This document shows, in pieces, positions 2,470-16,704 of a DNA stretch of 61,565 nucleotides. The notes under the pieces were generated by a model. The model saw nothing but the letters and a program-made list of their open reading frames with translations, did no database searches and had not been told where the DNA came from. The stretch spans positions 1 to 61,565 of the forward strand of contig JABIZD010000035.1 of the NCBI GenBank assembly GCA_018666555.1, given 5' to 3'. How positions within the stretch are numbered: position 1 is the first letter of the stretch; each line of letters opens with the position of its first letter. Source of the DNA: Gammaproteobacteria bacterium (GTDB taxonomy: Bacteria; Pseudomonadota; Gammaproteobacteria; Pseudomonadales; Azotimanducaceae). Position numbers and translations under genes: made by a program.

Positions 2470-3738
2470 ATGACTAGAAGCTTATATACCTTCGTTTTTG
2501 CCATCATGATGCCTTTTGTGTTGATTCGGCAATGGATTCGTTCCTTTAGGGAGCGGGCGTATCGACAGCAGTTGCAGCAGAGGTTTGGTTTTGTGCCCCG
2601 GAACGCCAGTAGCAGACAGGTACTGTGGCTACATGCGGTATCTGCGGGTGAAAGCATTGCTGCAGTTCCACTGGTCGAAAAACTGTTAGCTCAGAACTTC
2701 GAGATTGTCATGACTAATATGACGCCTGCAGGAAGGCAGCAGGTGAAGCAGCACCTAGGTAATCGCGTGTTGAATTATTACGCACCCTATGATTTACCAG
2801 GATTCGTAGCTAGATTTCTTGATCGTATACAACCCATTGCATTACTGACCATGGAAACCGAGTTATGGCCGAATACCATACATGTGTGTGCTCAACACGC
2901 AGTTGCCGTGATCCTGATCAACGGCCGTTTGTCGGAGAAGTCCTATAGGGGCTACAGGCGATGGCCTTCTCTGATCTTACCGATGCTGCAGAAGGTCGAC
3001 TGGTTTGCGCTGCAATCACCCTCTCATGAAGCTCGCTTTGCCGATTTGGGTGTTATTCATAGTCGTATGACGGTGACTGGCAGTATTAAATATGATCAGC
3101 ATCTTCCTGAGGATTTAGAAGACCGGAAGGCTCAGCTAAGTGGTTTGTTCCGGGGACGCAGAATATTGATGGCGGCTAGTACTCATCCAGGAGAGGAACA
3201 GCTTTTACTGGATGTTTATCAAGCCCTTAAGCCAGAAATTCCTGAGTTAGTATTGGTGCTTGCCCCCAGGCACATTCAAAGGAGCGCATCAATTGAGAAG
3301 TTAGTGGTCCAGAATAAATTAGGCTTGGCTAGTTTCAGCCGGCAGGATCGGCTGACAACGGACCAGGATGTTTATCTGCTTGATGCCATGGGCGAACTGG
3401 TTTATTTCTATGCTGTCTCAGAGATTGCTTTCGTTGGAGGTAGCATGATCCCCCGTGGAGGCCATAATTTTATGGAGGCAGCACTGGCTGGGACAGCTAT
3501 TGTCTGTGGAGACTCGCTATATAACTTTGAGGCGATAGCCGAACAGTTTCAAGCAGTCGATGCCATGGTGACAGTTGAGAATTCTGACCAGTTGCTCATG
3601 GAGACCCGAGCTTTGCTGCTTGATCCGGACAGGCGCTCGAATATGCAGGCTATTGGTCTTGAAACTGTATTGAAACACCGGGGCGCGCTGGAGCTGGTTG
3701 AGTCCGAATTAAAGAACCGACTTCAGAGTGGCTTCTAA
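2470..3738 (+). CDS. waaA: 3-deoxy-D-manno-octulosonic acid (Kdo) transferase
   Basis: WaaA (KdtA) adds Kdo residues from CMP-Kdo to lipid IVA at the cytoplasmic face of the inner membrane. The 422-residue length is typical. An N-terminal membrane anchor lies at about residues 5-20, then the Glycos_transf_N domain with the HAVSAGES motif holding the candidate catalytic Glu (E61) and the METELWPN signature (around 128-135). The C-terminal GT-B half carries the nucleotide-binding GGSMIPRGGHN stretch with the characteristic EAA. ATG start with an AAGGG-like site upstream. It is divergent from the lipid A acyltransferase across a 238-bp spacer that must carry both promoters. Confidence 0.95.
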   Translation: MTRSLYTFVFAIMMPFVLIRQWIRSFRERAYRQQLQQRFGFVPRNASSRQVLWLHAVSAGESIAAVPLVEKLLAQNFEIVMTNMTPAGRQQVKQHLGNRVLNYYAPYDLPGFVARFLDRIQPIALLTMETELWPNTIHVCAQHAVAVILINGRLSEKSYRGYRRWPSLILPMLQKVDWFALQSPSHEARFADLGVIHSRMTVTGSIKYDQHLPEDLEDRKAQLSGLFRGRRILMAASTHPGEEQLLLDVYQALKPEIPELVLVLAPRHIQRSASIEKLVVQNKLGLASFSRQDRLTTDQDVYLLDAMGELVYFYAVSEIAFVGGSMIPRGGHNFMEAALAGTAIVCGDSLYNFEAIAEQFQAVDAMVTVENSDQLLMETRALLLDPDRRSNMQAIGLETVLKHRGALELVESELKNRLQSGF

Positions 3739-3770
3739 CTCCCGAATAAAGACAGGGTCGGAACTCCCTG

Positions 3771-3787
3771 GCATTAGTTGCTAATGC
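3771..3787. terminator. Small hairpin between convergent waaA and symporter genes
   Basis: GCATTAG-TTG-CTAATGC is a perfect 7-bp inverted repeat with a 3-base loop between two converging genes. There is no clear T-run on either side, so a bidirectional terminator role is only plausible. Confidence 0.35.
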
Positions 3788-3815
3788 TAAACGACAAAAG
3801 GTGCCAGCTTTGCCT

Positions 3816-5258
3816 CTAATTGAGTCTTTTCTGCCAATAGACTTCCAGATCCCGCTTCACGCCGGGACCCAGTACGTAGAGAGCGGCAACATTAGCCAGG
3901 GCCATGGCAAATATCATGGCATCGGAAAAGTCGAGTACAGAACTTAATTGGGTCGTACAACCGATTACGATGAAGGCGCAGAAGATAGAATTGAAAATCA
4001 GCTTTGATGTTCTGCTTGCGCCGAAAATATAAATGAAGCCTTCAAGGCCATAGTATGACCAGGAAATCATAGTCGAATAAGCGAATAGCATAATCACCAC
4101 TGCCAGTATATAGGGGAACCAGGACCAGACGCTGGCGAACGCAGCTGAAGTCAGTTCCACGCCACTGATCTGGCCGTCATTCAGCATGGCAGGATCATAG
4201 ACAGTAACAGTGATGACCAGAGCGGTAATGGTGCAGACAACCACGGTATCGATAAAGGGTTCCAGCATCGCCACAAAACCTTGAGTCAATGGCTCTCTGG
4301 TTTTGACCGCGGCATGAGCAATTGACGATGAACCAACCCCGGCCTCATTTGAAAATGCAGCTCGACGAAAACCAAGTACCAGCACTGCAATCGCACCACC
4401 TGTTACCCCTTCCGGGCTGAATGCATTGGTAAAAATCGAAGCAATTGCGTCTGGAAGTTTGCTGTAGTTGACGCCGATAACAATGAGAGCCGTTGTCACG
4501 TAGAGTAACGCCATAAAGGGAACTAGCCTTGATGTCACTTTTGCAATGCTCTTGATGCCTCCGATGATGACTGCTGCTGTCACCAGGGCCAGAATAAGAC
4601 CAAATAGCCAGCCACGCCCGGCAAAGATGCTGGTGTCTCCGCCGCTGACTGAAACAAATTGTACATAGGCCTGATTGGCCTGAAACATGCAGCCTGCACC
4701 CAGCGAGCCGAGCATGATACATATTGCGTAGTACCACGCCATGGTCTTGCCAATTTTGGGCATATTCAGTTCTGCGAAACCTTTATCCATGTAGAACATG
4801 GGTCCTCCTGAAATTGAACCATCGGCGTTGGTCTGCCGGTACTTAACCCCCAGCGTACATTCCACAAATTTTGAAGCCATGCCGAGGAAGCCCGCTACGA
4901 TCAACCAGAAAGTGGCACCTGGCCCGCCAATTGAAATCGCCACAGCCACATGGACAACATTACCGACACCAACGGTTCCGGAGACGGCTGTGGTAAGGGC
5001 TTGAAAGTGAGAGACTTCCCCTGGAGCCTTGGGTTCGCTGTCTTGCCTGCCGCTGACGATGCTGATGGCATGGGTAAAGCCGCGAATGTTGATAAAGCGG
5101 AAATACCCGGTAAAAAAGGTAGCCCCAATAACAAGCCAGGCAACAATCAGAGGTAACTCTGTGCCGTTAACATCGATTGACACGAAAACAAGATCGACGA
5201 GAGTTTCCGCAATGGGTCTGAAGGCGGCGTCGATCGTCTGGTCAATTCCATCGCTCAT
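3816..5258 (-). CDS. Sodium:alanine symporter family (AGCS) transporter
   Basis: This is a Na+-coupled amino-acid permease of the inner membrane; members import alanine, glycine and related small amino acids, sometimes D-forms. The predicted 480-residue protein has about ten hydrophobic segments and the AGCS signature around VGVGNVVHVAVAI-GGPGATFW, plus the conserved GFRRAAFSNEAGVGSSSIAHA stretch. The chosen ATG (5256-5258) forms an ATGA overlap with the stop of the racemase gene upstream. A longer reading from 5306 adds 16 residues (MPRRRNNKTC...) unlike the family and is probably not used. As the last gene of a minus-strand operon it is likely the importer for the substrate handled by the preceding enzymes; the substrate is not known. 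Confidence 0.9.
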   Translation of the reverse strand: MSDGIDQTIDAAFRPIAETLVDLVFVSIDVNGTELPLIVAWLVIGATFFTGYFRFINIRGFTHAISIVSGRQDSEPKAPGEVSHFQALTTAVSGTVGVGNVVHVAVAISIGGPGATFWLIVAGFLGMASKFVECTLGVKYRQTNADGSISGGPMFYMDKGFAELNMPKIGKTMAWYYAICIMLGSLGAGCMFQANQAYVQFVSVSGGDTSIFAGRGWLFGLILALVTAAVIIGGIKSIAKVTSRLVPFMALLYVTTALIVIGVNYSKLPDAIASIFTNAFSPEGVTGGAIAVLVLGFRRAAFSNEAGVGSSSIAHAAVKTREPLTQGFVAMLEPFIDTVVVCTITALVITVTVYDPAMLNDGQISGVELTSAAFASVWSWFPYILAVVIMLFAYSTMISWSYYGLEGFIYIFGASRTSKLIFNSIFCAFIVIGCTTQLSSVLDFSDAMIFAMALANVAALYVLGPGVKRDLEVYWQKRLN

Positions 5259-5971
5259 AAGGGTTTGCTCCCAAGTGCAAGTTTTATTGTTTCTTCTGCG
5301 AGGCACTGAGATGTATCGATCACAGGTATCTGCGCAGGCATATCAGCATCAAGCGCTGACAGTTCAGTGCAGGCGATTATCAGGCAATCGGCCTGTTGTT
5401 GAAGGAGACTTGTCGCTACCTCTGCGAGGCATTGCCTGTCGGTAAGGTTTTGTTTTCCTGCCTTCATCTGTTTTATCAATGTCATTGTCATTTCCTGGTA
5501 TACCTCTCCAGGTGAAATCACTGATATGCCTTTTGCCTGAAATGCGTCCTCAAACAGTCCGGTTTGAATTACGGCGGTAGAGGCCAGTAAACCTACCCGT
5601 TGCGTAGATGCATTTGAGCTAATGACTGATCGCACTGTGACGTCAACCATATTGATAAAGGGAATAGGGACGGCGGATGAAATTTCAGTTGCATAAAGAT
5701 GCGCTGTATTACAGGGCATAATCAGGAAGTCTGCGCCTTGCGCTGATAAGCCTTGAGCCATCTTGACCAAAACCGGGGCCGGGTTTTCACCTCGTTGATG
5801 TAGGATATAGTCGATACGAGATGGGACTAATGGATTATTATCAACGAGGATGCGGATATGACCGGCATCATCAGCAGCAGGTGTGCCGCGGACAATTCTT
5901 TGTAACAGATCGACCGTTGCCTGAGGGCCCATCCCTCCCAGAACGCCTACGGTTCGCCGTTGATCAACCAT
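5255..5971 (-). CDS. Aspartate/glutamate racemase family protein
   Basis: Cofactor-independent amino-acid racemase of 238 residues. The two catalytic cysteines of the family are present in typical contexts: MPCNTAH (C87) and ACTELS (C201). The N-terminal GVLGGMGPQAT and the VDNNPLVPSRIDYI segment match aspartate-racemase-like members (YgeA type). It overlaps the upstream aminotransferase gene by 8 bases and the downstream symporter by 4, so translation is probably coupled. Relatives accept acidic amino acids; cysteate, a sulfonate analogue of aspartate, is a reasonable candidate substrate given the neighbouring lyase, but that is inference. Confidence 0.87.
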   Translation of the reverse strand: MVDQRRTVGVLGGMGPQATVDLLQRIVRGTPAADDAGHIRILVDNNPLVPSRIDYILHQRGENPAPVLVKMAQGLSAQGADFLIMPCNTAHLYATEISSAVPIPFINMVDVTVRSVISSNASTQRVGLLASTAVIQTGLFEDAFQAKGISVISPGEVYQEMTMTLIKQMKAGKQNLTDRQCLAEVATSLLQQQADCLIIACTELSALDADMPAQIPVIDTSQCLAEETIKLALGSKPL

Positions 5972-7148
5972 GAGCTGTTGCTACCTCAGAGATAATCTCG
6001 GCAATTAGTCGACAGTCATCCAGATTAAAGGTCAGGGATATCCGCATATCAACAAGACAGTTCAGGCGCTGCTGAGTTGCGGGTAATATATAACTTTGAC
6101 CCAGATACTCCCAGCTGTCATAACGACTCGTATAGCCGTGCGGTTCTTCGCTACCGAAGTATTTCAGTTGTATTCCCCTGCTGGCACAGTCTGATACAAA
6201 GGCGGTCATCTGCAACTGAGTCAAACCCGGTAAAAGAAACTGTATTGAACTACCAACAAATCTCTCCTGTTGGTTTCTGTCGGGTAGCTCAATAACCGGT
6301 ACTTTTGCCAATACTTCAGTTATGACGGCGTAGCGCTGGTTCCACCTGGCGCAATTCGTATCTAACTCTGGCAACTGGGCTCTTAGTACCGTAGCCCTCA
6401 GATTGTCCATTCGCCCACTATAGTTCGGTGTGGTCTTCGCAAACCGGGTCATCTCTGATGGGTCAGGTGCTGCCAGATGTCGGTCATATAACATATAAGA
6501 TCCTGACAGGATGATGGCCTTGGCTATCAGTTCCGGATTATCAGTCACCAGTAGGCCTCCTTCGCCTGAATTCAGGTGCTTGTACGATTGTGTACTAAAG
6601 CAGCTCACCTCGCCAAAATTACCACTACGCTGATCACCCCACCAGGCGCCGAGGCTATGGGCACAATCTTCAATCAGGGTAATTTTGTAGCGCTGACAAA
6701 TAGTTGCAATCTGATCCATATCAGCGAGGTGTCCGCGCATATGGGATAGGAGCAGGAAATCCGCTTGATCAGCTTTAGCCTCAAGATCGTACAAGTCGAT
6801 GGTCAGCCCAGAACTTGTTTCAACCAGTAGAGGAATCGCTCCACAGTTATTAATAGCGCCCGGTACGGGTGCAAGAGTGAACGCATTACATAGGACAACA
6901 TCACCAGGCTTAACCCCGGCCGCGAGCATCGCCACATAGAGCGCATAGCCACAGGAAGCACAGGCAAGGCAATAGCTGCTGCCTTGATAGGCTGCAAACT
7001 CGCTTTCGAGTAACGCTGTAGGACCTGGATTATCGGGAGTCGCATCATAGCGATGCAAACGACCCGAGCGCATGATCTCGACAGCCGACTCAATGGCTGC
7101 CTCGGGCAGGGCTTCTTGTTGTAGAAATGATTTCTCGAACTGTCTCAT
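5964..7148 (-). CDS. DegT/DnrJ/EryC1/StrS-family PLP aminotransferase
   Basis: This 394-residue fold-type I PLP enzyme has the Asp that contacts the pyridine nitrogen in EDCAHSLGA (D161) and the Schiff-base Lys in STQSYKHLNSGEGG (K190), both in canonical DegT contexts. Family members usually transaminate keto-sugars in surface polysaccharide or antibiotic pathways, but no sugar nucleotide genes are nearby; instead it sits between a HisD-type dehydrogenase (ATGA overlap) and an amino-acid racemase (8-base overlap). It may act on an amino-acid-derived aldehyde or keto acid in the same route. The actual substrate cannot be read from the sequence. Confidence 0.85.
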   Translation of the reverse strand: MRQFEKSFLQQEALPEAAIESAVEIMRSGRLHRYDATPDNPGPTALLESEFAAYQGSSYCLACASCGYALYVAMLAAGVKPGDVVLCNAFTLAPVPGAINNCGAIPLLVETSSGLTIDLYDLEAKADQADFLLLSHMRGHLADMDQIATICQRYKITLIEDCAHSLGAWWGDQRSGNFGEVSCFSTQSYKHLNSGEGGLLVTDNPELIAKAIILSGSYMLYDRHLAAPDPSEMTRFAKTTPNYSGRMDNLRATVLRAQLPELDTNCARWNQRYAVITEVLAKVPVIELPDRNQQERFVGSSIQFLLPGLTQLQMTAFVSDCASRGIQLKYFGSEEPHGYTSRYDSWEYLGQSYILPATQQRLNCLVDMRISLTFNLDDCRLIAEIISEVATAHG

Positions 7149-8464
7149 TTCTGCTGGTTCTCAAGCTCGTCTGTTGCTCGTACAGTAAAACTCCATTCTT
7201 CATCGGGAAAGTACTTACGTAATCGCCAGTCGCAGGCGCGGGCGTGGCCCTCCATGCCTTCCGCACGGGATATCCTGGAACCTGTTGCACTCATGAGCCG
7301 ATTCGCCTGTTCATCTATTTTCTGCCAGGTCAGCACCTTGATGAATTTCTGAACATTCAGGCCACCGGTATAACGTGCGCCCTTCAGGGTCGGTAGGATG
7401 TGATTGGTTCCGGAGCACTTGTCTCCATGAGTGACGGTACTGCCTTCACCTAAAAATAATGAGCCGTAATTGGCAAGGTTTTCTCGCCACCAATCGAGGT
7501 CAGCTGCGAGAATTTGCAAATGTTCGGGCGCGTAATGATCACTGATTTCAACCATCTCAGAGCGATCACTGCATAAAACGATTTCGGCATGATGTTGCCA
7601 GGCATGATCTATCATTTCGGCATTTGGCATTCCTGAGGCGATGTGTTTCACCAGTTTCATTACTTGATTGCCGAGTTTTCGATCATCGACAATCAACCAC
7701 ACAGGTGAATCAGGACCATGTTCAGCCTGGGAAATCAGGTCAATGGCAATACTGGTTGGATCAGCATTCGAATCAGCAATTATGGCTGATTCTGTCGGGC
7801 CAGCAACGACATCGATACCCACTTCTCCGAATAGCATTTTCTTGGCAAGGGCGACATAGCTGTTGCCTGGGCCTACCAGCATATCGACTGGGGGGTTGCC
7901 AAACAGCCCGAAGGCCATAGAGGCAATTGCTTGCACACCTCCCATCTCGAGAATAACGTTTACACCGGCCAGGTCCATCGCATAGGCAACGGCCGGATGG
8001 ATACTGCTGCCACGCGGCGGCGAACAGGCGATAATCTCAGAGACACCGGCAACTCTGGCAGTAGCAATACTCATGAGTGCAGAGGCTGCGTGTGCATACC
8101 TGCCCCCGGGTACGTAGCAGCCCACTGTTTGTATTGGAACCAGTCTTTGGCCTAGGACTACTCCGGGCTCAGTTTGGATTTCGAATTCTGTGAGGCTGGC
8201 TCGCTGTGCTTCGGCAAATCTATTTATCTGCTTCAGGGAAAACTGTAGATCAGACTTGGTCTGTTCAGGCACCTGATCAATCAGCATTTTTTTCTTGGCA
8301 TCACTGAGGACGAACTCATCCTCCCAGCCATCGAGCTCACGGGCATACCGTTTAATAGCAGGTTCACCTTCATGTCGAATGGTTCTCAGCATTTCTTGAA
8401 CGCGACTGGCTATTTGCGGGTCGTCTTCAACACGGGTGGAAGACGATCGCTTCAGGTACTCCAC
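7145..8464 (-). CDS. Histidinol dehydrogenase family protein, probably catabolic (HpsN-like)
   Basis: NAD-dependent, zinc-dependent dehydrogenase of 439 residues. HisD-family enzymes oxidise a primary alcohol to a carboxylate in two steps. The metal ligands and catalytic pair can be placed: Q246 and H249 (SQAEHGP), E314-H315 (APEHLQ), D348 (HGDKCSGTNH) and H407 (EGMEGH). No other his biosynthesis gene is near except the distant hisZ, and the gene sits in a catabolic-looking operon. Together with the CSGTNHILPT variant this suggests a paralogue such as sulfopropanediol 3-dehydrogenase (HpsN) rather than histidine synthesis. The GTG start shares one base with the TAG stop of the lyase gene; the stop overlaps the aminotransferase ATG. 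Family is certain, substrate is inference. Confidence 0.85.
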   Translation of the reverse strand: MEYLKRSSSTRVEDDPQIASRVQEMLRTIRHEGEPAIKRYARELDGWEDEFVLSDAKKKMLIDQVPEQTKSDLQFSLKQINRFAEAQRASLTEFEIQTEPGVVLGQRLVPIQTVGCYVPGGRYAHAASALMSIATARVAGVSEIIACSPPRGSSIHPAVAYAMDLAGVNVILEMGGVQAIASMAFGLFGNPPVDMLVGPGNSYVALAKKMLFGEVGIDVVAGPTESAIIADSNADPTSIAIDLISQAEHGPDSPVWLIVDDRKLGNQVMKLVKHIASGMPNAEMIDHAWQHHAEIVLCSDRSEMVEISDHYAPEHLQILAADLDWWRENLANYGSLFLGEGSTVTHGDKCSGTNHILPTLKGARYTGGLNVQKFIKVLTWQKIDEQANRLMSATGSRISRAEGMEGHARACDWRLRKYFPDEEWSFTVRATDELENQQK

Positions 8465-9474
8465 TAATCAGTCTCCCGCTTACCAAATAGACTAGGGTAC
8501 CCGAACAGGGCCTGGGAGCCGCCTGTGTGGATGAAGACTACATTTTCACCTGCTTTAAATTCTCCCTGCCTGACAAGGTCAATGAGTCCGGCCATGGCTT
8601 TGCCTGAATAGACCGGGTCGAGCAAAATGGATTCATGGCGGGCGGTCAGCTCCACGGCTTCAATCATGCCGTCGGTGGGTAGACCGTAACCTGCGCCAAC
8701 ATAGTCGCTGTTTGCAACAATGTCATGCCGTGACAGTGCACTCGCGGAACCAATGTAAGCAGCTGTTTCCTGAGCCAGGCGATAGACATTTTCCTCCTGT
8801 GCCTGCTTGGGAGCACGAACGCTTATACCTAACACGCCTATGCCACTGTGTATTGCTGTCAGACCAGCAATAAGTCCTGCCTGGGTCCCGGTACTGCCGG
8901 TGCCATGTACAATCCTGTCAACTTTTAAGCCAAGATCATTGCACTGTCCATTGAGTTCATAGGCTGCGTTTGCGTAACCAAGTGCGCCAATTCGATTGGA
9001 ACCACCGCCTGGAATGATATAGGGCTTGCGGCCTTGGTCTTCGAGGCTATCTGCCAGGGTCTGCATTTCGGCATTCATGTCGGTACCCGCTGGGAAGTCA
9101 TGCAGGCTCGCACCAAATATTTCATCCAATAGTACATTGCCATTAGACAGGAAATCAGGGTCCTCGGAGCCAGTTCGGTTTTCCAATAACAGGTGGCAGT
9201 CATATCCCATGCGGGCCGAAATTGCCGCAGTTTGTCTGGCGTGGTTGGATTGCACGGCACCCTGGGTAATGATGGTGTCGGCACCCTTGGCCTGGGCGTC
9301 AGCTATCAGGAACTCGAGCTTACGAGTCTTGTTTCCTCCTCCAGCTAATCCTGTGCAATCATCTCGTTTCACCCAGAGGTTGGGGCCACCCAGCAGACGC
9401 GACAGATTCTCCATAGGTTCCAGTGGAGTGGGTAGGTGAGCGAACCGCAAACGCGGGAATCTGGCCAGGTGCAT
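8464..9474 (-). CDS. D-cysteine desulfhydrase / L-cysteate sulfo-lyase (CuyA)-like PLP enzyme
   Basis: Fold-type II PLP lyase of the ACC deaminase/D-cysteine desulfhydrase family, 336 residues. The Schiff-base Lys is K49 in [10 protein letters not shown], and [10 protein letters not shown] (residues 75-84) supplies the Ser-Asn-His pocket. IPGGGSN and [11 protein letters not shown] bind the PLP phosphate. The start MHLARFPR, the KRDDCTGL segment and [13 protein letters not shown] resemble, from memory, the cysteate sulfo-lyase CuyA of marine alphaproteobacteria more than enteric DcyD. CuyA converts L-cysteate to pyruvate, ammonia and sulfite; DcyD releases sulfide from D-cysteine. Its neighbour is a HisD-type dehydrogenase. 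Family is certain; choice between the two activities needs phylogeny. Confidence 0.85.
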
Positions 9475-9520
9475 AACTTCTCCTTTAATTTGTCTTCTGC
9501 TTTTGCAGTATTACCTAGTA

Positions 9521-10357
9521 TTAGGGAATGGGCCACAAACGCGGGAAAAACTCGCTGTCTAGTGGGTCTCCATCTTGGTGTCCCGCCAGCTCAAATTCTC
9601 TTCTTTCTGGCTTGGTCCAGTCGCCGCGATAGCGAATACAGCCGTCTTCTGCGGCCATTCTCACAGTGAATCGCCGCTGCCGTGTTTCAGGCAGGTGGTC
9701 GGGAGATGTTCCATGCAGCAGTCTGATATCAAAACAAAGGCAATCACCGGGTTCAACCCCGAAGGATATAAGGTCGTACTGGTCGCGGTTCTGGTCTATG
9801 TCTGGCGGAGGTTGGTAGAACCTGCCGTTTATCCATCCAGGTTCTGATGCCAATTGATGGCCATCAAAATAGACCCTCATGAAGCGTTTTTCCCATAGGT
9901 GAGAACCGCGTACAAATTCAATGCCCTGACCGGCGCGACAAGCTTCCAGTGGAATCCAGAAGGCACACATTCTCCCCTCAAAATCGAAATAGGACACATC
10001 ATGATGCCAGGGTGCTCTGGCGTGACTACCCGCTTCGCGCACGAACCAGTTGTCCATTACCAGATTAATACGACTGGCATTAAGCAGCCGGGCCGCATAA
10101 CCCGCGGCTGGAGACTCTCGCAGGAACGCCTCGAACTGAGGAATACTTGACCAGACCCAGTAATCTTCCTGGTAACTGGAAAAGTCGTCCTTGACTCGTC
10201 GTACGGAATGCCGTGGACTCGGATGCTGCATAGCCTCATCAAGTCCTTGAGCCAGCCTGTTGATCCAGGATGGTGAAAATGCGTTACGTAAGTGAACAAC
10301 CCCGTCAGTTCGAAACGCATCGATCTGGGCAGCCGACAGATACCCTGATTTAGTCAT
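9521..10357 (-). CDS. Phytanoyl-CoA dioxygenase (PhyH) family oxygenase
   Basis: Probable Fe(II)/2-oxoglutarate-dependent hydroxylase, 278 residues. The double-stranded beta-helix iron ligands are visible as H118 and D120 in WHHDVSYF and the distal H215 in LLHGTSPDH, with R229 in QRRFTVR a candidate for 2-oxoglutarate binding. FVRGSHLW is the usual PhyH signature. It overlaps the upstream amidohydrolase gene by 8 bases and precedes the CuyA-like gene by 46 bp, so it belongs to the operon. PhyH enzymes hydroxylate many small molecules (ectoine, acyl-CoAs, alkyl amines); here it could hydroxylate or open the pathway substrate, which is unknown. Confidence 0.85.
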   Translation of the reverse strand: MTKSGYLSAAQIDAFRTDGVVHLRNAFSPSWINRLAQGLDEAMQHPSPRHSVRRVKDDFSSYQEDYWVWSSIPQFEAFLRESPAAGYAARLLNASRINLVMDNWFVREAGSHARAPWHHDVSYFDFEGRMCAFWIPLEACRAGQGIEFVRGSHLWEKRFMRVYFDGHQLASEPGWINGRFYQPPPDIDQNRDQYDLISFGVEPGDCLCFDIRLLHGTSPDHLPETRQRRFTVRMAAEDGCIRYRGDWTKPERREFELAGHQDGDPLDSEFFPRLWPIP

Positions 10358-11855
10358 GAGTGCTCAGGCGCTTGCCTGGAAACGCGTCTTCGATCAGCTC
10401 TGCATTCCTTACAACGAAGCTACCGTTAACGATGACGTGGTGTATTCCTTTAGAAGGTTGATAGGGATTTTTATAGGTTGCACGATCAATGATGGTCAAG
10501 GGGTCAAAAATTGTCAGGTCAGCATCAGCACCTTCCTGCAGGCGACCTTTTTTCCTAAACGCGGGAGCAAATTTTTCAAGCCTCTGTGCCTGTAGCAGCG
10601 TTATTTTTTTAATAGCTGTGTTCAAATCAAGCAAGCCTTCCTGGCGATAGTAGCGCCCCAGTGTTTTGGCAAAAGTGCCGTTATGGGGCGCAACTTTATT
10701 TTCTTCTGTGAACATTGGCAGAAGATCGCTAACCACCATTAAGCCAGGTTCAATGACTGCGCGACGATTCCAGGATTCACTCAGGTAATGATGTACTACC
10801 TGGCCACCGGGATAACGCTGGCGGTAGTCTTCCCACTTCTCTTTGGTAAATCGTTCCCCTGTTGCCGCCCATTCCACATCACCATAGTCGATGTTAAAAA
10901 TCGTGCGCCAGTCTCGCCCGAATACCGCTGCCCCGATTGAGGTTGAACCGGCGGTATAGGGTAAAAGTTCCGTTGTTACGTCCAGTCCCTCCGACTGGGC
11001 CTTGCGGATTTCTGCAAGGAATAATTCCAGATTTACCATTGCATTGTGGGTGATGTGGCAGATATGCAGAGACGCGCCGGTTTCGCGTGTCAACGCCAGT
11101 ACTTCAAATAAGCCCGTCGGGTCTCCGTTCACACCTCGACGAATGTGCACAAATATCGGGACCGAACGTTCGGAGGCAACGGTAAAAATAGTCCGTAGCT
11201 CGTCATGATCGATTCCCTCGCTATAGTAGTCCAGGGGTAGGCCAATACCGAGGCCGCCCTGATCAAGCCCTTCATGGATCAATGCTCTTAGCCTGTTTCG
11301 TTCATCGTCTTCGGCGACTTTTGTATTGGCAGTTGTGACTTGTCCAAATCGGGACTTGATTGACCACCACCAGCCCATCGGCCCGAGCAGCTGCGGAGGG
11401 TCTGTCAAATGCGGCTGACGAACGCCGTGCATGACTTCGTTGCGCATATTGCCGTAGGCGGCAGAGGCTCCGTAGTTAAGTCTTGAGCCAGCCTGTAGGT
11501 GGTAGCCATATTGATCCACCGGGAATGCACCTGCTTCGAGTTCCAGTGCCGTGGTTACACCGTCCAGAACCTGATATTTCTGGCCAAGCGGCGTTGGAGT
11601 GTGACTATGGATATCAATGAAACCTGGCGATACGACTAGAGATGATACATCGATGGTTTCGATACCCTGCAGTGGTGCATCGCTTATCTTGCTAATAACG
11701 CCATCTTTCACCCCGATGTTACGAATAGCGTCAAGACCGGTTTCCGGGTCAATTACCCTACCTCCCGCAAGCACATAGGTGTAATTAACCTCTGCCATGG
11801 CAGGATCTGTCAGCATAAGGCACAACAACAGAGTCCGTAGATAGTTTCCCCACAT
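10350..11855 (-). CDS. Exported amidohydrolase, N-acyl-D-amino-acid deacylase-like
   Basis: Metal-dependent amidohydrolase of the D-aminoacylase/Amidohydrolase_3 group, about 501 residues from the chosen ATG. That start gives a clear signal peptide (MWGNYLRTLLLCLML...) ending AMA-EV near residue 21, with GAGA upstream; a longer frame to 11963 adds 36 unlike residues. The HxH metal motif is DIHSHTPTP (H83, H85), a further His lies in HICHITHN, and the C-terminal GADADLTIFDP strand is typical. The position that is Cys in characterised D-aminoacylases appears as Glu here (TTALELEAG). It would act in the periplasm, freeing an amino compound from an N-acyl or cyclic amide precursor. It overlaps the PhyH gene by 8 bases. 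Confidence 0.8.
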   Translation of the reverse strand: MWGNYLRTLLLCLMLTDPAMAEVNYTYVLAGGRVIDPETGLDAIRNIGVKDGVISKISDAPLQGIETIDVSSLVVSPGFIDIHSHTPTPLGQKYQVLDGVTTALELEAGAFPVDQYGYHLQAGSRLNYGASAAYGNMRNEVMHGVRQPHLTDPPQLLGPMGWWWSIKSRFGQVTTANTKVAEDDERNRLRALIHEGLDQGGLGIGLPLDYYSEGIDHDELRTIFTVASERSVPIFVHIRRGVNGDPTGLFEVLALTRETGASLHICHITHNAMVNLELFLAEIRKAQSEGLDVTTELLPYTAGSTSIGAAVFGRDWRTIFNIDYGDVEWAATGERFTKEKWEDYRQRYPGGQVVHHYLSESWNRRAVIEPGLMVVSDLLPMFTEENKVAPHNGTFAKTLGRYYRQEGLLDLNTAIKKITLLQAQRLEKFAPAFRKKGRLQEGADADLTIFDPLTIIDRATYKNPYQPSKGIHHVIVNGSFVVRNAELIEDAFPGKRLSTHD

Positions 11856-12212
11856 AGCATTATTCTCTTGGTTAGTTGCAGGCTTTTGGAGATTATCATT
11901 TATCAGATTGAGTTTCGAATAGCTTTGCCTGCCGATAAGTAACCGGTAATTACGCAATGGCACCTTCTACAGGTTGATTTTAGTACGGATCGCCCTTAAC
12001 GGTATGTCAGCAGGTGTCAGTGCTCAGGTGCAGATTATTGTCGAGTTCACCGATATTGAAGGTGGCCTGTGGACGTAGGACTTAGAGGCTTGCATCGTGC
12101 CGCAGACATAGCCGGGGCTTCAATAGATGATTCATAGCCCTAAACCCAAGCAGTTTTAATGAGTATTGCTGCTCTGAGCGCCTTGTAAGGGTTTTCTGGT
12201 GTTGTAAAGAAG
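11856..12212. other. Intergenic region between the two amidohydrolase genes
   Basis: These 357 bases separate two minus-strand amidohydrolase genes and probably carry the promoter of the downstream six- or seven-gene operon. No convincing ORF, RNA, strong hairpin or sigma-70 promoter could be picked out by eye. Confidence 0.5.
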
Positions 12213-13931
12213 TCACTGGATCGGGTAGATGTCACCTTCAAATACGGTACCAAATATGGGAATCTTGTGCAGATTTTCAATTGCAACTGCATAAGGGTCC
12301 TGGTTCAGGATCGTGAAGTCTGCCTTCTTACCGGGGGTAATGCTGCCGATCTGATCTTCCATCTGAATGGCTCGAGCAGCCTCAATGGTGACGGCCCTTA
12401 AGGCCTGGTCACGACTCAGTTTGAGCTCAGGAGCGAGCACTTTTCCTGATGCGGTCAGCCGATTCGCTGCCACCCAGGCCAGTTTGAGTGGTTCTGCCGG
12501 CGCCATAGTAAAGTCGGAATGAAGCGATATTGGCACACCGGCATCGAGAAGTTCCCGGCCCAGGAATATCTTCTCAGCGCGGTCTGGGCCCAGACCAATC
12601 TCCGAGTACTTTTCTCCCAGTGTATAAAGATAATAGGGTTGCGCCGAAACATAAGCATTGAGTTCGCCCAGTCTTTTTGCCTGGGCAGCCGTGGCGTAAC
12701 CTAGATGATGCAGGGTGAACCTGTGGTCTTGCCTTGGAGTCTCTCGCAGTAATGTCTCCAATACGTCAATGACGACATCGGTTCCCTTGTCACCATTAGT
12801 ATGGACGTGTATCTGGTAGCCTGCCCGCCAGAATCGTCTTGCTTGCTGCAGCAGATCTTCCGGCTCCATAAGCCACTCACCCTCATGGCCATCGAGATAA
12901 CCAGGCGGATTCATTTGCATTAGTTGCGAGTAAAATGCGCCGTCGGCAAATAGTTTGACCTGTTTGACCCACCGTATCTTCGAGTTTTCCAGGGCTTGTA
13001 ATCTAGCCATCCGTTTCAGGCTTTCCGCACCACCGGCCGGGCTGCCAAAGCTTCGGCTGTCGGCAATCATCAATGTGCGAAACGGAGCAGCACCAAAAAC
13101 CTCCGAAACGATAGGCCAGGTTTCTTCAAAGTTAAATCCGCCTGCTGCCATATCCGCAATCGTTGTGATACCGCCGTTGTGAACTATTTTTCTGGTGAGT
13201 TCCAGACCCTGCCTGAATTTTTCAGGAGCAAGTACGATGGGTGCGAGTTTAGCCATTGCGACGCGAAGGCCTGTTTCGTAGAAATGCCCCCGATTGAAGT
13301 CGACGTGATGGTGGCCTGCAACATGGTCGGATTCTATGGCCATGATCCTGAGTGCTGCTGTATTGGCAAAAAGCTCGTGAAAACTTCGATGCCAGACGAT
13401 GATGGGCTGATCGATAGAGATACTATCCAGGAAACTACGTGACATATCACCATGAAAGTATTGGTGATAACCCCAGGTCAGAAACCAGGAGTCTTTATTG
13501 CTTTTTGCGACCCCATCTTTCAATGCCTGCCGGTAAGGCTTTTCTCCCTGAACGGCAGCGACTTCTCTGTCTGGAAAGCGCCAGTCAAAGGGTGTGATGA
13601 ATTTCATCGGTAAAATTAATGCAGCCATAGCAGGATGCAAGTGGTTATCAATCAGGCCGGGCATGATGATTTTGTCTTTGAAGACTTCATCAACGGTAAA
13701 CGCTTGGTTCCCTAGGCTGGCTTTGACATCTTCAAGGTTGCCAACGGATATAATGAATTTGTCTCGAACAGCAACCGCTGTTGCTGCTTCCGGAGAAGCC
13801 ATAGTGATGATCTTCTTGGCAACGTAAATGGTTGCGTCGGAGGTGGCCGGGCTGGTGGCAGCCGACAGCATGGATCCCAACAGGATCAGCATACTGCCAA
13901 TAAGGACTCGCTGAAAAGATAGACTGATCAT
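12213..13931 (-). CDS. Exported YtcJ-like amidohydrolase (Amidohydrolase_3 family)
   Basis: Predicted 572-residue periplasmic hydrolase. The N-terminus (MISLSFQRVLIGSMLILLGS) is a signal peptide with cleavage near LSA-AT (residue 24). The metal-binding DNHLHP motif is at residues 95-100, HVHTNGDKG carries a further His in the central barrel, and SLHSDFTMAPAEPL plus the C-terminal GKKADFTILNQDP are hallmark YtcJ segments. The family is related to amide and hydantoin hydrolases, but the natural substrates are mostly undetermined. It is first in the run of minus-strand genes, 357 bp ahead of the second amidohydrolase, and may be a separate transcription unit for the same substrate class. Confidence 0.82.
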   Translation of the reverse strand: MISLSFQRVLIGSMLILLGSMLSAATSPATSDATIYVAKKIITMASPEAATAVAVRDKFIISVGNLEDVKASLGNQAFTVDEVFKDKIIMPGLIDNHLHPAMAALILPMKFITPFDWRFPDREVAAVQGEKPYRQALKDGVAKSNKDSWFLTWGYHQYFHGDMSRSFLDSISIDQPIIVWHRSFHELFANTAALRIMAIESDHVAGHHHVDFNRGHFYETGLRVAMAKLAPIVLAPEKFRQGLELTRKIVHNGGITTIADMAAGGFNFEETWPIVSEVFGAAPFRTLMIADSRSFGSPAGGAESLKRMARLQALENSKIRWVKQVKLFADGAFYSQLMQMNPPGYLDGHEGEWLMEPEDLLQQARRFWRAGYQIHVHTNGDKGTDVVIDVLETLLRETPRQDHRFTLHHLGYATAAQAKRLGELNAYVSAQPYYLYTLGEKYSEIGLGPDRAEKIFLGRELLDAGVPISLHSDFTMAPAEPLKLAWVAANRLTASGKVLAPELKLSRDQALRAVTIEAARAIQMEDQIGSITPGKKADFTILNQDPYAVAIENLHKIPIFGTVFEGDIYPIQ

Positions 13932-14022
13932 TTTTTCACCTTTGTCTTAATCAATGAAGGTTTCATTCTCTAGGCCAGAGCAACTTGCATCGACTCAGCT
14001 AGGTATTTTTTGACTGCAGTTG

Positions 14023-14787
14023 CTAGTGGTTCCACCAGGCAAGATCCGTAAACGAACGCATGTCGAGTTCGTGGGTCCAAACTGATCGATGCTGTTGGGC
14101 AATGTGAAAGTAGGTTTCCGCCATTTTTGCAGGCAGCATTAGCCCATCGTGTTCCATGCCTTTGGATTCCCTGAGTTTCTGGAACTGTTCTTTGCCCAGC
14201 ATTTTCCCAAGGGTGTCGGGCGCGTCTACAGCACCGTCAACGATAATGTGGGCGATATGAATGCCTTTGGCAGCAAATTGTGCATTCAGCGATTGGCATA
14301 ACATGCGGCGGCCACCCATGGCAGCCGCGTGGGAGTGTTGCCCGGCATTACCGCGTACAGCAGATGTGGCTGAGGTGACTAAAATAGTACCTTTGCCGCG
14401 TTCTTCCATTAATGGACAGACACTGGCTGCGGTTCGAAAAAGCCCAAAAGTAGCCATTTTCCAGCCCATCTCAAATGCTTTATAGCTGGTGTCTGCCAGG
14501 GTGCGATTGCCGATCTGTGCACCGAGGTTATAGATCACTACTTCAATCGGTCCGATGTCTGCTTCAATAGCACTGATACGTTCTTCAAGCGCGCCATCTT
14601 CAATGGCATTGAGGATAAAACCCGTAGCGCTGCCGCCGTTCGCCTCGATTTCCGTGACCAGTGTATTCAACCCGTTCTGATCACTGCGCCGACATAGCAC
14701 CGAGTGATAACCTGCTGCAGCAAATTGTTTTCCTACATGACCGCCAATACCGGCGCCTGCACCAATCACTAAACAAACTGGTTGCAT
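14023..14787 (-). CDS. SDR-family protein with a degenerate active site
   Basis: Short-chain dehydrogenase/reductase fold, 254 residues. The NAD(P)-binding GxxxGxG motif is G9-A-G-A-G-I-G15 and the NNAG-like segment is YNLGAQIG. The catalytic Ser can be placed at TSATS (about S139), but the expected YxxxK about 13 residues later reads H153-A-A-A-M157, so both the Tyr and the Lys are missing. Either catalysis differs or the protein binds nucleotide without the standard reaction. Its first 19 bases overlap the end of the HxlR regulator gene, so the two are translated together and the pair is probably functionally linked. Confidence 0.8.
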   Translation of the reverse strand: MQPVCLVIGAGAGIGGHVGKQFAAAGYHSVLCRRSDQNGLNTLVTEIEANGGSATGFILNAIEDGALEERISAIEADIGPIEVVIYNLGAQIGNRTLADTSYKAFEMGWKMATFGLFRTAASVCPLMEERGKGTILVTSATSAVRGNAGQHSHAAAMGGRRMLCQSLNAQFAAKGIHIAHIIVDGAVDAPDTLGKMLGKEQFQKLRESKGMEHDGLMLPAKMAETYFHIAQQHRSVWTHELDMRSFTDLAWWNH

Positions 14788-15284
14788 AGTTTTCTCCTCA
14801 TGATTTCAGTCCCTGGGTTATTGGTTCCTGTCCCAGGCCGTAAAGCAGGGCCGGGCACAGCCCTAATATCACGGCATAATAATGTTCGGCCATCCTGGCT
14901 GATGGCGGCCATTTGTCGGATGGGTAGTTCGGTATCGCGCTCAACGAAGGTCAATCGCGCACCTTTCGGATTGGCTTTATACTGATCTCCCCAGTGTGTC
15001 ATAGATAACAGCACGGGTTGTAAAGCCAACCCTTTATCAGTTAATCGATATTCGGCATGGGCTCCCTCTGTTATTGCTGCCTTTTTCAGAATGTCCTCTG
15101 CAACTAAACGTTTCAGCCTTGAAGAGAGGATGTTACGAGCGATATCGAGATTCTCTTGAAATTGGCTATACCTACGTGCACCTAAGAAAGCGTTTCGTAG
15201 AATCAGCAGGGTCCAGCGTTCACCTATGATGTCTAGTGTTTGTGCCAGGGAGCAGTTCATTTGATCGAACTTTTTGTATTTCAT
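14769..15284 (-). CDS. HxlR-family winged-helix transcriptional regulator
   Basis: 171-residue regulator. The HxlR domain occupies residues 10-100: CSLAQTLDIIGERWTLLILR, then the recognition region around RNILSSRLKRL and the wing AEYRLTDKG. The conserved N-terminal Cys of the family is C11; in related regulators such as YodB and HypR this residue senses quinones, aldehydes or oxidants. The C-terminal 60 residues form an extra tail of unclear role. It lies 56 bp downstream of a GST gene and overlaps the SDR gene, so it probably controls this small cluster. Confidence 0.87.
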   Translation of the reverse strand: MKYKKFDQMNCSLAQTLDIIGERWTLLILRNAFLGARRYSQFQENLDIARNILSSRLKRLVAEDILKKAAITEGAHAEYRLTDKGLALQPVLLSMTHWGDQYKANPKGARLTFVERDTELPIRQMAAISQDGRTLLCRDIRAVPGPALRPGTGTNNPGTEIMRRKLCNQFV

Positions 15285-15340
15285 ATTTGGATGCCGATAA
15301 GTTGTTGGCTCATTTGCCAGGGAAAATTAAAGGAATCTGA

Positions 15341-15961
15341 TCAGGCGGTTTTTTCTGTTTCGACGCGCTGAACACTAGGGTGCTGGGCCATCAGCGCCTG
15401 GACTCCCCGTATCGTTGCATATTCCGCGAGTAAATCTTCACCGTAGATCGCTCTTACCATGCCGGAAGCCATGCCGAGACTATAGAAGGTGTAGAAGTCA
15501 GCCAGGGTCACCTGCTCACCGGCGGCATAAGGTGTGCCGACAAAAAGGCGGTCAACAGCTTTCATACCCTTGGCCAGGTCGGTTTTGACGGCTGCTTTGG
15601 TTTCTTCGCTGACCGGCTGTTTGAACAGGGCCTCGGGTAACAAGCGTCTGGCCACCAGTTCCACATCCAGCTTGAGATGACATACCAGTTCCATTACTTT
15701 GGCTGCTTGCATGGTGTTTGCAGGAAGTAATGCGGGTTTGGGTTGCAGACTTTCCAGATAGGTTGCAATTGCGATTGATTCAGACAGGTAAACGCCTTCG
15801 GCTTCTATGGCTGGCATTTTACCCATAGGCGAGAGCATGAGGAAGTCTTCCTTCTGGCTAGGAGGTCTCTTTACCTCCTCAAAATCTACGCCCTTTTCAA
15901 TCAGTAGAGCTTTGGTGAGGCTGTAGTAGTTGCTCATGCGAAGACCGTAAAGCTTTATCAT
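15341..15961 (-). CDS. Glutathione S-transferase family protein
   Basis: 206-residue cytosolic GST with an N-terminal thioredoxin-like domain (MIKLYGLRMSNYYSLT..., residues 1-77) and an all-helical C-terminal domain. The G-site shows SPMGKMPAIE (cis-Pro loop) and LSESIAIATYLE (the Glu-Ser that holds the gamma-glutamyl group). It would conjugate or reduce small electrophiles with glutathione. It is the first gene of the GST-HxlR-SDR set; the HxlR regulator with its N-terminal Cys suggests induction by reactive electrophiles. The specific substrate is not evident. Confidence 0.85.
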   Translation of the reverse strand: MIKLYGLRMSNYYSLTKALLIEKGVDFEEVKRPPSQKEDFLMLSPMGKMPAIEAEGVYLSESIAIATYLESLQPKPALLPANTMQAAKVMELVCHLKLDVELVARRLLPEALFKQPVSEETKAAVKTDLAKGMKAVDRLFVGTPYAAGEQVTLADFYTFYSLGMASGMVRAIYGEDLLAEYATIRGVQALMAQHPSVQRVETEKTA

Positions 15962-16704
15962 GTTCCCTTATCCCGTCAATTTTTTAGTTGCTTCCCAGGT
16001 GGGAAAGATGAATTTAGTTTCATGATAAAACCATATTCAAATTCATCAAGCAAGGCCTGTAGCGTTAAGCCTTAAACAGGCGCTAGCCAAGGTTTTTAGG
16101 GGCTGAGATTCAGGTGTATCCTGGTGGACTACGAAACGGTGTCAGGATATTGCCATTGATCCATTGATCCATTGATCCATTGATCAGTATCTTGCCTGGG
16201 CAGGATGAAGCTGGGTTCACCTTTGCAACTGACGCACTACATTAAGCGGACATCTTTTAGAGACAGGCCCTGGCATCTAAATCATCTGCCCGATGCTTGT
16301 CCATTGGCTTTTGTTAGCTAGCACTGTTCGAATATGAGCCTAGGCTGCAGGATTTTCTAGCGTGTTGATTTAGGGTTGCCGCAATCGACTTTGATATGAG
16401 CCTTTTGTCATCTGAAAACGAGACCATCTCAGCATCGGCATTATTGTCCTTAGTACCATTAGACAGCGCCTTACCTCCCAGGGTTCGATGTGCGAGGCAA
16501 GCCTGGGTTGATCGGTTGGTACCTGGACAACTGATCCAGGCATTTTTTTCTGCTGTGCGCTTCCAATAGCATCGAGCATTTCCCTGTTTGCCTTCATGAC
16601 TAGCGCCAGGTTAGGTTAGATACGCAGGGTAGTGATGGGTAAAATTCGATGATTAAGGCTGGCTTTAAACGTGATAGGCTTATCCAGTATTCAGGGTTGA
16701 ATTT
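15962..16704. other. Long intergenic region between the accessory block and yqiB
   Basis: These 743 bases carry no credible gene. They hold the probable promoter of the GST gene, potential stem-forming segments near 16050-16105 (GCCTGT/ACAGGC and TAGCG/CGCTA, overlapping), a four-copy CCATTGAT repeat and the palindrome AGCCTAGGCT. It marks the border between accessory genes and the conserved yqiB-parE-parC block. Confidence 0.5.
16153..16184. repeat. 8-bp tandem repeat CCATTGAT x4
   Basis: Four exact head-to-tail copies of CCATTGAT, followed by CAGTATC. The array is noncoding and lies about 520 bp before yqiB. It is a simple-sequence repeat prone to slippage; no regulatory role can be shown. 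Confidence 0.95.

Follow-up and report, generated by a model that had tools for sequence, protein, structure and literature searches.

A putative operon for the degradation of a C3 aminosulfonate, most likely cysteinolate, built around a recurrent HpsN-DegT-CuyB-CuyA core

What compound does a bacterium consume when it encodes two apparently exported amidohydrolases, an oxygenase, a sulfo-lyase, a dehydrogenase, an aminotransferase, a racemase and a sodium symporter side by side? This question is raised by a block of eight minus-strand genes at positions 3816-13931 of contig JABIZD010000035.1 (C133 in our numbering), which belongs to the draft genome GCA_018666555.1 of a gammaproteobacterium of the Azotimanducaceae (4.17 Mb, 217 contigs). 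The whole stretch that was analysed, 61,565 nucleotides, is called the window here; G numbers denote the genomes, and L numbers the loci or records, with which it was compared. In the reading towards which we lean, the block is an operon whose products break down a C3 aminosulfonate. The likeliest substrate is cysteinolate (2-amino-3-hydroxypropanesulfonate), probably in an amide-linked form. A preliminary description had read the block as one catabolic unit, and its order of outside cleavage, uptake, oxidation, racemisation and elimination remains plausible. The eight open reading frames (ORFs) in the ORF list have the coordinates given there, and the families named there agree with the Pfam assignments (Na_Ala_symp, Asp_Glu_race, DegT, Histidinol_dh, PALP, PhyH and two Amidohydro_3). 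As the substrate it had proposed a generic N-acylated amino compound, with cysteinolate and cysteate among the candidates; the candidates fit, but the generic compound gives way to a C3-sulfonate, since this is what the CuyA and CuyB cut-offs and the sulfonate motif of HpsN point to.

Cysteate is the expected intermediate because two proteins of the block pass the cut-offs of curated NCBIfam equivalog models: the D-cysteate sulfo-lyase CuyA (8464..9474) with 539.1 bits against NF052482 (cut-off 450), and the cysteate racemase CuyB (5255..5971) with 268.7 bits against NF052483 (cut-off 190). In CuyB, the cysteines of the motifs MPCNT (at 85) and CTE (at 201) are taken to be the catalytic residues, and CuyA, judged by its family, would be expected to release sulfite, pyruvate and ammonia from D-cysteate. 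The NCBIfam cut-offs rule out a D-cysteine desulfhydrase or a 1-aminocyclopropane-1-carboxylate deaminase for the CuyA gene. The CuyA/CuyB cysteate degradation of Ruegeria pomeroyi has the same end reaction, to pyruvate, sulfite and ammonia, but there a LysR gene, cuyA and an exporter gene (SPOA0157-0159) lie next to a TRAP transporter, and the 13 kb shown contain no HpsN, DegT or racemase gene. CuyA also lacks HpsN and DegT on the stretch shown in five of six further plasmid records with CuyA, the sixth being a Ruegeria plasmid discussed below. Two genomes of the same genus as the window's (G001 and G012; loci L039 and L041) carry a CuyA with 63-65% identity in a different cluster, together with genes that, by eye, are M81/MlrC-like, M19-dipeptidase-like, short-chain dehydrogenase/reductase (SDR), TonB receptor and DadA-like oxidase genes; this cluster looks like a second cysteate-releasing pathway.

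The gene between cuyA and the aminotransferase gene encodes a member of the HisD family (7145..8464), a Zn- and NAD-dependent alcohol dehydrogenase that resembles HpsN. Its best solved relatives are dehydrogenases of sulfopropanediol, that is, dihydroxypropanesulfonate (DHPS), at 446-483 bits, versus 247 bits for the best histidinol dehydrogenase. According to PMC11382572, the HpsN motif is G-R-Y-A/S-H, and in CpHpsN the residues His126 and Lys353 contact the sulfonate while Gln248, His251, Asp352 and His411 are zinc ligands. The window protein has GGRYAH, equivalents of both sulfonate ligands (His125 and Lys349) and of all these zinc ligands (Gln246, His249, Asp348 and His407). HisD enzymes share with it the family, the zinc-ligand residues and the chemistry of a two-step amino-alcohol oxidation, but His126 and Lys353 (CpHpsN numbering), kept in 23 of the 23 sequences of the window clade described below, are in none of the four HisD sequences aligned, all of which have Tyr in place of this His and Lys. 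A role in histidine synthesis is ruled out, because the genome encodes another HisD elsewhere, 30% identical to the window protein, and because the sulfonate motif is present. The same paper reports that CpHpsN was crystallised at 1.75 Å with L-cysteate bound like the product R-sulfolactate (section 2.4) and that L-cysteate is a weak inhibitor, with a half-maximal inhibitory concentration of 2.4 mM. The HpsN pocket therefore accepts the expected product of cysteinolate oxidation.

These genes are part of a tightly packed arrangement. Of the six junctions between the seven genes from 11855 to 3816, five are overlaps and one is a gap of 46 bp, which bears out the earlier statement that six junctions overlap or are shorter than 50 bp and that the genes form a probable operon. 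In the direction of transcription, the overlaps measure 8 bp between AmiD (stop 10350) and PhyH (start 10357), 1 bp between CuyA (stop 8464) and HpsN (GTG start 8464), 4 bp between HpsN (stop 7145) and DegT (start 7148), 8 bp between DegT (stop 5964) and CuyB (start 5971) and 4 bp between CuyB (stop 5255) and the AGCS symporter (ATG 5258, although its longest ORF begins at the GTG at 5306), and the gap separates PhyH (stop 9521) from CuyA (start 9474). The eighth gene, Amh3, lies some 250-360 bp upstream of the other seven, so that the seven-gene unit is the safe operon. In the pathway that we favour, the exported amidohydrolases would act outside the inner membrane to set the zwitterion free, and import would fall to the AGCS symporter. 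The HpsN-like dehydrogenase would then oxidise the primary alcohol of cysteinolate to the carboxylate with two NAD+, as HisD does with histidinol, and yield L-cysteate, which CuyB would convert into D-cysteate and CuyA into pyruvate, ammonia and sulfite. DegT would swap amino and keto groups at C2, the favoured reaction being the interconversion of 3-hydroxy-2-oxopropanesulfonate and cysteinolate, which would also let a DHPS-derived ketone enter.

DegT (5964..7148) is a pyridoxal-phosphate aminotransferase of PF01041 (180.9 bits) that belongs to a distinct subfamily linked to HpsN, CuyA and CuyB. It has the catalytic lysine, Lys190 in YKH, which is invariant in alignments of 11 and 23 sequences (the homologues of L078 and L081 were not recovered whole and are left out of the former), and its best solved chain reaches only 104.6 bits. 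Among the 50 matches listed for its AlphaFold model (mean predicted local distance difference test, pLDDT, 91.8) are sugar, cyclitol and similar aminotransferases at 18-24% identity, and none of these 50 gives a clue to the substrate. The modelled fold would fit an enzyme that exchanges the C2 amino and keto groups of a small hydroxyketone, and the gene context argues for a sulfonate as the probable substrate rather than a nucleotide-sugar or cyclitol ketone.

Since DegT is the least expected member of the block, we used it as the probe to find out whether the gene set recurs. In a class-wide sample of 369 genomes, including the window's own, DegT has matches at E <= 1e-60 in 16 other genomes, 11 of them at 51-62% identity and five at 39-41%. 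HpsN is found in 20 others (E <= 1e-90) and CuyA in 10 others (E <= 1e-95). The 11 closer DegT genomes, one of which is 58% complete, overlap with the HpsN genomes in nine cases and with the CuyA genomes in seven, and HpsN and CuyA overlap in 10, against expectations of 0.6, 0.3 and 0.5 (Fisher p 3e-11, 2e-10 and 2e-14, respectively, uncorrected for genome relatedness). In the five genomes with the distant DegT, HpsN matches do not exceed 280 bits and CuyA is absent at E <= 1e-60. Adjacency was seen as CuyA-DegT in G417 and CuyA-HpsN-DegT in G321, and a separate search added CuyA-DegT in G039. In G117 and G202, DegT lies next to genes that look like those of a taurine-type transporter; an SDR beside DegT in G202 was considered for a ketone step and not used, being 31% identical to one HpsO and 33% to another SDR.

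A scan of named genomes with the 11-sequence DegT alignment, in which the best 80 of 579 loci were kept and neighbours within 8.5 kb were counted at 40% identity or more, gave HpsN in 26 loci, CuyA in 15 and CuyB in nine. In 25 of the 80, hpsN lies directly upstream of the DegT gene on the same strand. HpsO was found once and HpsP, ComD and ComE in none of the 80 loci; the flavin mononucleotide (FMN) dehydrogenase of canonical clusters was absent at this threshold and present in two at 30-34% identity. It should be noted that diverged forms could be missed in these counts because the reference proteins come from four gammaproteobacterial clusters. Of the 48 loci that are not beside glmS/glmU, 31 have HpsN, CuyA, CuyB or a threonine-synthase-like gene, and complete operons with a LysR gene followed by cuyA-hpsN-degT-TRAP-cuyB occur in Oceanisphaera psychrotolerans, Enterovibrio calviensis and Grimontia celer. 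The only locus with HpsO at this threshold is L203 (7563-11188), from Desulfofustis, where DegT is accompanied by an HpsO-like SDR (50-55% identity) and a class V aminotransferase. Threonine-synthase-like genes lie near HpsN-DegT in three lineages (L167, L178 and L279), including alphaproteobacterial and Desulfosarcinaceae genomes. They score 620 and 652 bits against the threonine synthase model (cut-off 303), and one of the proteins matches cysteate synthase weakly (95 bits, cut-off 325); these proteins could possibly be L-cysteate lyases that replace CuyA and CuyB. Genes resembling those of dimethylglycine dehydrogenase and/or MttB are found near the DegT core in five of the 80 loci (L152, L158, L165, L167 and L171) and, by annotation, in the plasmid records L289, L292 and L294, which suggests N-methylated substrates.

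The core also travels on plasmids. DegT has a match at E <= 1e-60 in 11 of 72,556 plasmid records, and all 10 records in which it reaches at least 46% identity match all four core genes (CuyA 59-67%, HpsN 50-64%, CuyB 31-44%), while the eleventh, with a DegT of 36%, has no such cassette. The four plasmid racemases that were scanned (L289, L290, L292 and L295) all lie above the CuyB cut-off. Seven of the 10 cassettes include a taurine-type ABC transporter (TauA match of at least 51%) and six a YeiH-type exporter. One Ruegeria plasmid has cuyA, a racemase above the CuyB cut-off and hpsN with no DegT beside them, which is a complete cysteinolate route under our model. In the public annotation of the plasmid records, CuyA is named D-cysteine desulfhydrase and HpsN histidinol dehydrogenase (histidine biosynthesis), and the other core members appear as DegT-type aminotransferase and amino acid racemase. 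Because the core recurs elsewhere, and because DegT, HpsN and CuyA co-occur across genomes, the gene set goes beyond chance. The earlier suggestion of an undescribed set was thus too narrow in one respect, as the block does not stand alone. Co-occurrence in other genomes, on which the preliminary description had staked its reading, was found for the four-gene core and in part for the two amidohydrolases and the symporter, but not for PhyH.

Two phylogenies were built for HpsN. The first tree had 48 rows, covering 21 of the 26 HpsN-bearing genome loci and seven of the 10 plasmid cassettes; the second had 55, with L171, L175, L186, L217, L337, L338 and L330 added and the split L161, L295 (in two pieces) and the partial L146, L147 and L096 left out. 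The window HpsN falls into a clade of 23 in the first (support 99/97) and of 27 in the second (99/95). All 27 members are linked to DegT, and the clade excludes all seven canonical HpsNs, which come from clusters judged by eye to have SDR/alcohol dehydrogenase (ADH) or ComDE-like genes, as well as both solved DHPS dehydrogenases. Thus, in the larger tree, the window protein does not group with characterised DHPS dehydrogenases. Residues that divide the DegT-linked clade from the canonical HpsNs exist, although none could be attributed to an amine replacing a hydroxyl group. G321 and G417 have an HpsN-SDR-ADH cluster of canonical layout in addition to their DegT locus. DHPS degradation through HpsNOP, as in Cupriavidus pinatubonensis and R. 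pomeroyi, likewise uses an HpsN-type dehydrogenase with G-R-Y-A/S-H, but hpsO and hpsP are part of that system, whereas neither is found among the eight window genes by Pfam and NCBIfam scans of the block.

The proposal of an amide-linked substrate comes from the front end of the block. AmiD (10350..11855) lies above the cut-off of subfamily NF006560 (449.8 versus 340 bits) and has the motifs IHSH, HIRR, CHITH and VVSDL, which presumably hold the metal ligands. Its best solved relatives are N-acyl-D-glutamate deacylase and D-aminoacylase (98-113 bits), which share the subfamily but differ from AmiD in that the latter has, by eye, a signal-like N-terminus from the ATG at 11855 and sits in a sulfonate operon. 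Amh3 (12213..13931; PF07969, 165.7 bits) also has a signal-like N-terminus, and the AGCS-family sodium:amino-acid symporter (3816..5258) matches PF01235 with 394 bits and TIGR00835 with 377.6 bits (cut-off 272.65). Orthologues of this symporter with 75-77% identity occur in four of 194 other relatives, G430, G434, G457 and G460 from three genera, the next best reaching at most 60%. Amh3 lies beside the orthologue in G430, G434 and G457 (two other genera of the family) and AmiD in G430 and G457. HpsN and DegT lie beside it in G430 only, which belongs to another genus of the window's family: here Amh3, AGCS, AmiD, HpsN and DegT are accompanied by a threonine-synthase-like gene that the end of the contig truncates, and the stretch has no CuyA, CuyB or PhyH. 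Amh3, AGCS and PhyH are missing from all 80 DegT loci, as is AmiD at E <= 1e-20. The sole distant AmiD-like gene among them (22%, 57 bits) is in L170, where transporter-like genes, an Amidohydro_3 gene, DegT, HpsN and an Ldh_2 dehydrogenase run in one direction (4487-12919). With the Amidohydro_3 gene directly before DegT and HpsN, L170 is a second case of amidase, DegT and HpsN, outside the window's family, and this speaks for an amide there as well. On plasmids, AmiD matches occur in 24 records, with at most 37% identity among the 15 matches listed.

The PhyH-family Fe(II)/2-oxoglutarate oxygenase (9521..10357; PF05721, 77 bits) has HHD (at 118) and, further along, a His within RLLHG (at 212). 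Its nearest solved relative is MysH, an Fe/2-oxoglutarate dioxygenase of the mycosporine pathway, to which the similarity is weak (102 bits) over nearly the full length. A mycosporine-linked oxygenase was rejected, as no mycosporine gene is among the ten proteins scanned at 3816-15284. On plasmids, PhyH matches occur in 36 records, all below 60% identity and at most 33% among the 15 matches listed, and a single-sequence structure model (pLDDT 42.4) was unusable. Perhaps PhyH carries out an oxidative N-dealkylation, as a local solution to a possible common theme. The window genome has 35 PhyH-family matches in its 4.17 Mb, and one of 14 control genomes has any.

Several observations weigh against this model. 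DegT is superfluous for the conversion of cysteinolate into cysteate, so that the simplest model leaves its constant presence unexplained, and 32 of the 80 DegT loci are beside glmS/glmU, none of them with HpsN, CuyA or CuyB. DegT adjoins CuyA or HpsN on the stretch fetched in just two of the 11 class genomes. TRAP transporters, which also serve DHPS, occur in eight of the 80 loci. PhyH has no match above 35% identity in the 194 other relatives, and the window operon has no sulfite exporter; three TauE matches elsewhere in the genome mean little, because all 14 control genomes have the family. The stereochemistry rests on an assumed configuration of natural cysteinolic acid and on Cahn-Ingold-Prelog rules applied by hand: (R)-cysteinolate would give (R)-cysteate, the L form, in the spatial arrangement of the R-DHPS that HpsN prefers; this would explain the need for CuyB. 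Finally, ten more DegT-linked HpsNs (eight plasmid rows, L170 and L279) and the Ruegeria row stand on the canonical side of the tree. HpsN must therefore have come beside DegT more than once, which weakens the argument from lineage for a different substrate, although repeated pairing would, as far as the phylogeny goes, be compatible with related substrates. The strongest alternative is a DHPS route, which we consider unlikely but worth serious attention, in which HpsN would oxidise R-DHPS to R-sulfolactate, a dehydrogenase, in some genomes Ldh_2, would form sulfopyruvate, DegT would be the missing sulfopyruvate aminotransferase and make cysteate, and CuyB and CuyA would finish. The HpsN family is characterised as DHPS-3-dehydrogenase, ten DegT-linked HpsNs cluster with canonical ones, and DegT and HpsN co-occur in nine of 11 class genomes; the aminotransferase and racemase genes for the steps from sulfopyruvate through cysteate are described as unknown in R. 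pomeroyi in PMC11382572 (section 2.8). Hydroxy acids are among the compounds that Ldh_2 enzymes can oxidise; an Ldh_2 gene follows DegT-HpsN in L170, and another, unlinked to the operon, lies in the window (42113-43168) and also counts against cysteinolate. The window gene scores 233 bits against the L-sulfolactate dehydrogenase model (cut-off 500; the genome scan took in no SlcC, SlcD, SuyAB or Xsc) and 425 bits against a malate/lactate/ureidoglycolate dehydrogenase model (cut-off 336), and the Ldh_2 proteins of L170 (163 bits) and L338 (136 bits, a cut protein) are likewise below 500. Against a DHPS route, the window operon has no sulfolactate dehydrogenase, Ldh_2 relatives occur in only two of the 80 loci (L170, and L226 at 28%) and in one of the 10 plasmid cassettes (L338, about 6 kb away), and the HpsO, HpsP, ComDE and FMN dehydrogenase counts given above are as low. 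Moreover, taurine-type and AGCS transporters would be unexpected for an anion that has no amine, and DegT is closer to sugar than to keto-acid aminotransferases.

It is improbable, in our estimate, that the block scavenges N-acyl-cysteate or cysteate peptides, with the amidohydrolases freeing cysteate for CuyB and CuyA, and HpsN, DegT and PhyH as side inputs. AmiD does resemble N-acyl-D-amino-acid deacylases, the CuyA clusters in the same genus have M81-, M19-dipeptidase- and DadA-like genes, and in Paracoccus aminophilus CuyA and a racemase adjoin M20/M25/M40 hydrolase and ABC transporter genes. However, the tight operon includes HpsN and DegT as well, all 10 plasmid records with DegT at 46% identity or more also have HpsN, and an AGCS carrier would be unexpected for an anion such as cysteate. 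Still less probable is a loose patchwork in which the core degrades cysteinolate or DHPS while AmiD, Amh3, AGCS and PhyH serve an unrelated N-acyl amino acid. It would agree with two findings: in G457, G434 and G460 the stretch fetched has front-end genes but no HpsN-DegT, and the 80 loci are nearly free of front-end genes, L170 alone having a distant AmiD-like gene. On the other side, five junctions of the operon are translational overlaps and G430, of another genus, has the same front end beside HpsN-DegT.

Cysteinolate as the substrate has a natural setting. Cysteinolic acid is widespread in marine algae and reaches intracellular levels in the DHPS range in phytoplankton (PMC8703288), 3-hydroxy-2-oxopropanesulfonate has been detected with it in DHPS-producing diatoms and coccolithophores (PMC11131964), and its bacterial biosynthesis is reported as not established (PMC8319176). 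Amide-linked cysteinolate is described in starfish steroids (PMC4413178) and, in titles cited in PMC11286703, in fish bile salts, and cysteinolate is the head group of a roseobacter aminolipid (PMC11631085). CuyA, CuyB and HpsN are known families. The openly licensed literature (CC0, CC BY or CC BY-SA) contains, among the matches listed, no description of the four-gene core as a pathway; the searches of this literature also gave no bacterial genes for cysteinolic acid degradation. In this literature 13 papers mention cysteinolic acid or cysteinolate; DegT together with dihydroxypropanesulfonate and cysteinolic acid together with aminotransferase did not occur, and DegT with cysteate occurred only in a paper on an osmoprotectant database. 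One of the 13 cites a review of cysteinolic acid metabolism from 2022, so the core may already have been described elsewhere.

We also put forward, as a tentative and on balance doubtful extension, that with the HpsN-DegT-CuyB-CuyA core a genetic route for cysteinolate metabolism comes to light for the first time, that DegT interconverts cysteinolate and 3-hydroxy-2-oxopropanesulfonate and so supplies the core in catabolic bacteria, that the glmS/glmU-linked DegT of roseobacters makes cysteinolate, and that the window amidases release it from conjugates such as sulfonolipids, cysteinolate-conjugated steroids and bile salts. The roseobacter enzyme would then supply the cysteinolate of their cells and of their sulfur-containing aminolipids. 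Many of the glmS/glmU-linked loci (L198 and L212, for example) are from roseobacters, and 20 of the 32 are also near an acyl-CoA-dehydrogenase-like gene. Many bacteria from the sea and from soil, as well as plasmids, carry the core, mostly under other annotation names. If our view is correct, genes that now go by the names D-cysteine desulfhydrase, histidinol dehydrogenase, DegT-type aminotransferase and amino acid racemase would become markers of marine sulfur and nitrogen flux, open to counting in metagenomes and to testing in cultures. DegT would then be a lead either to the aminotransferase that is missing from the cysteate branch of DHPS degradation or to the way in which cysteinolate originates.

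The surroundings of the block add a few observations. Predicted sites in 3500-16000 are uninformative, with eight promoter-like sites (shuffle mean 12.8) and 13 terminator-like sites (shuffle mean 11.7). Upstream on the same strand, at 14023-15961, lie SDR, HxlR-type regulator and glutathione-S-transferase-like genes, and the regulator may or may not control the operon. The genes flanking the block look, by eye, like core genes. Between 4 and 16 kb the GC content is 0.50-0.52 and the GC skew about zero, compared with 0.45-0.51 and a skew above 0.09 in most of the window; near-zero skew also occurs in one other 2-kb bin, at 52-54 kb. An accessory block on the opposite strand would be consistent with this shift, which says nothing beyond that.

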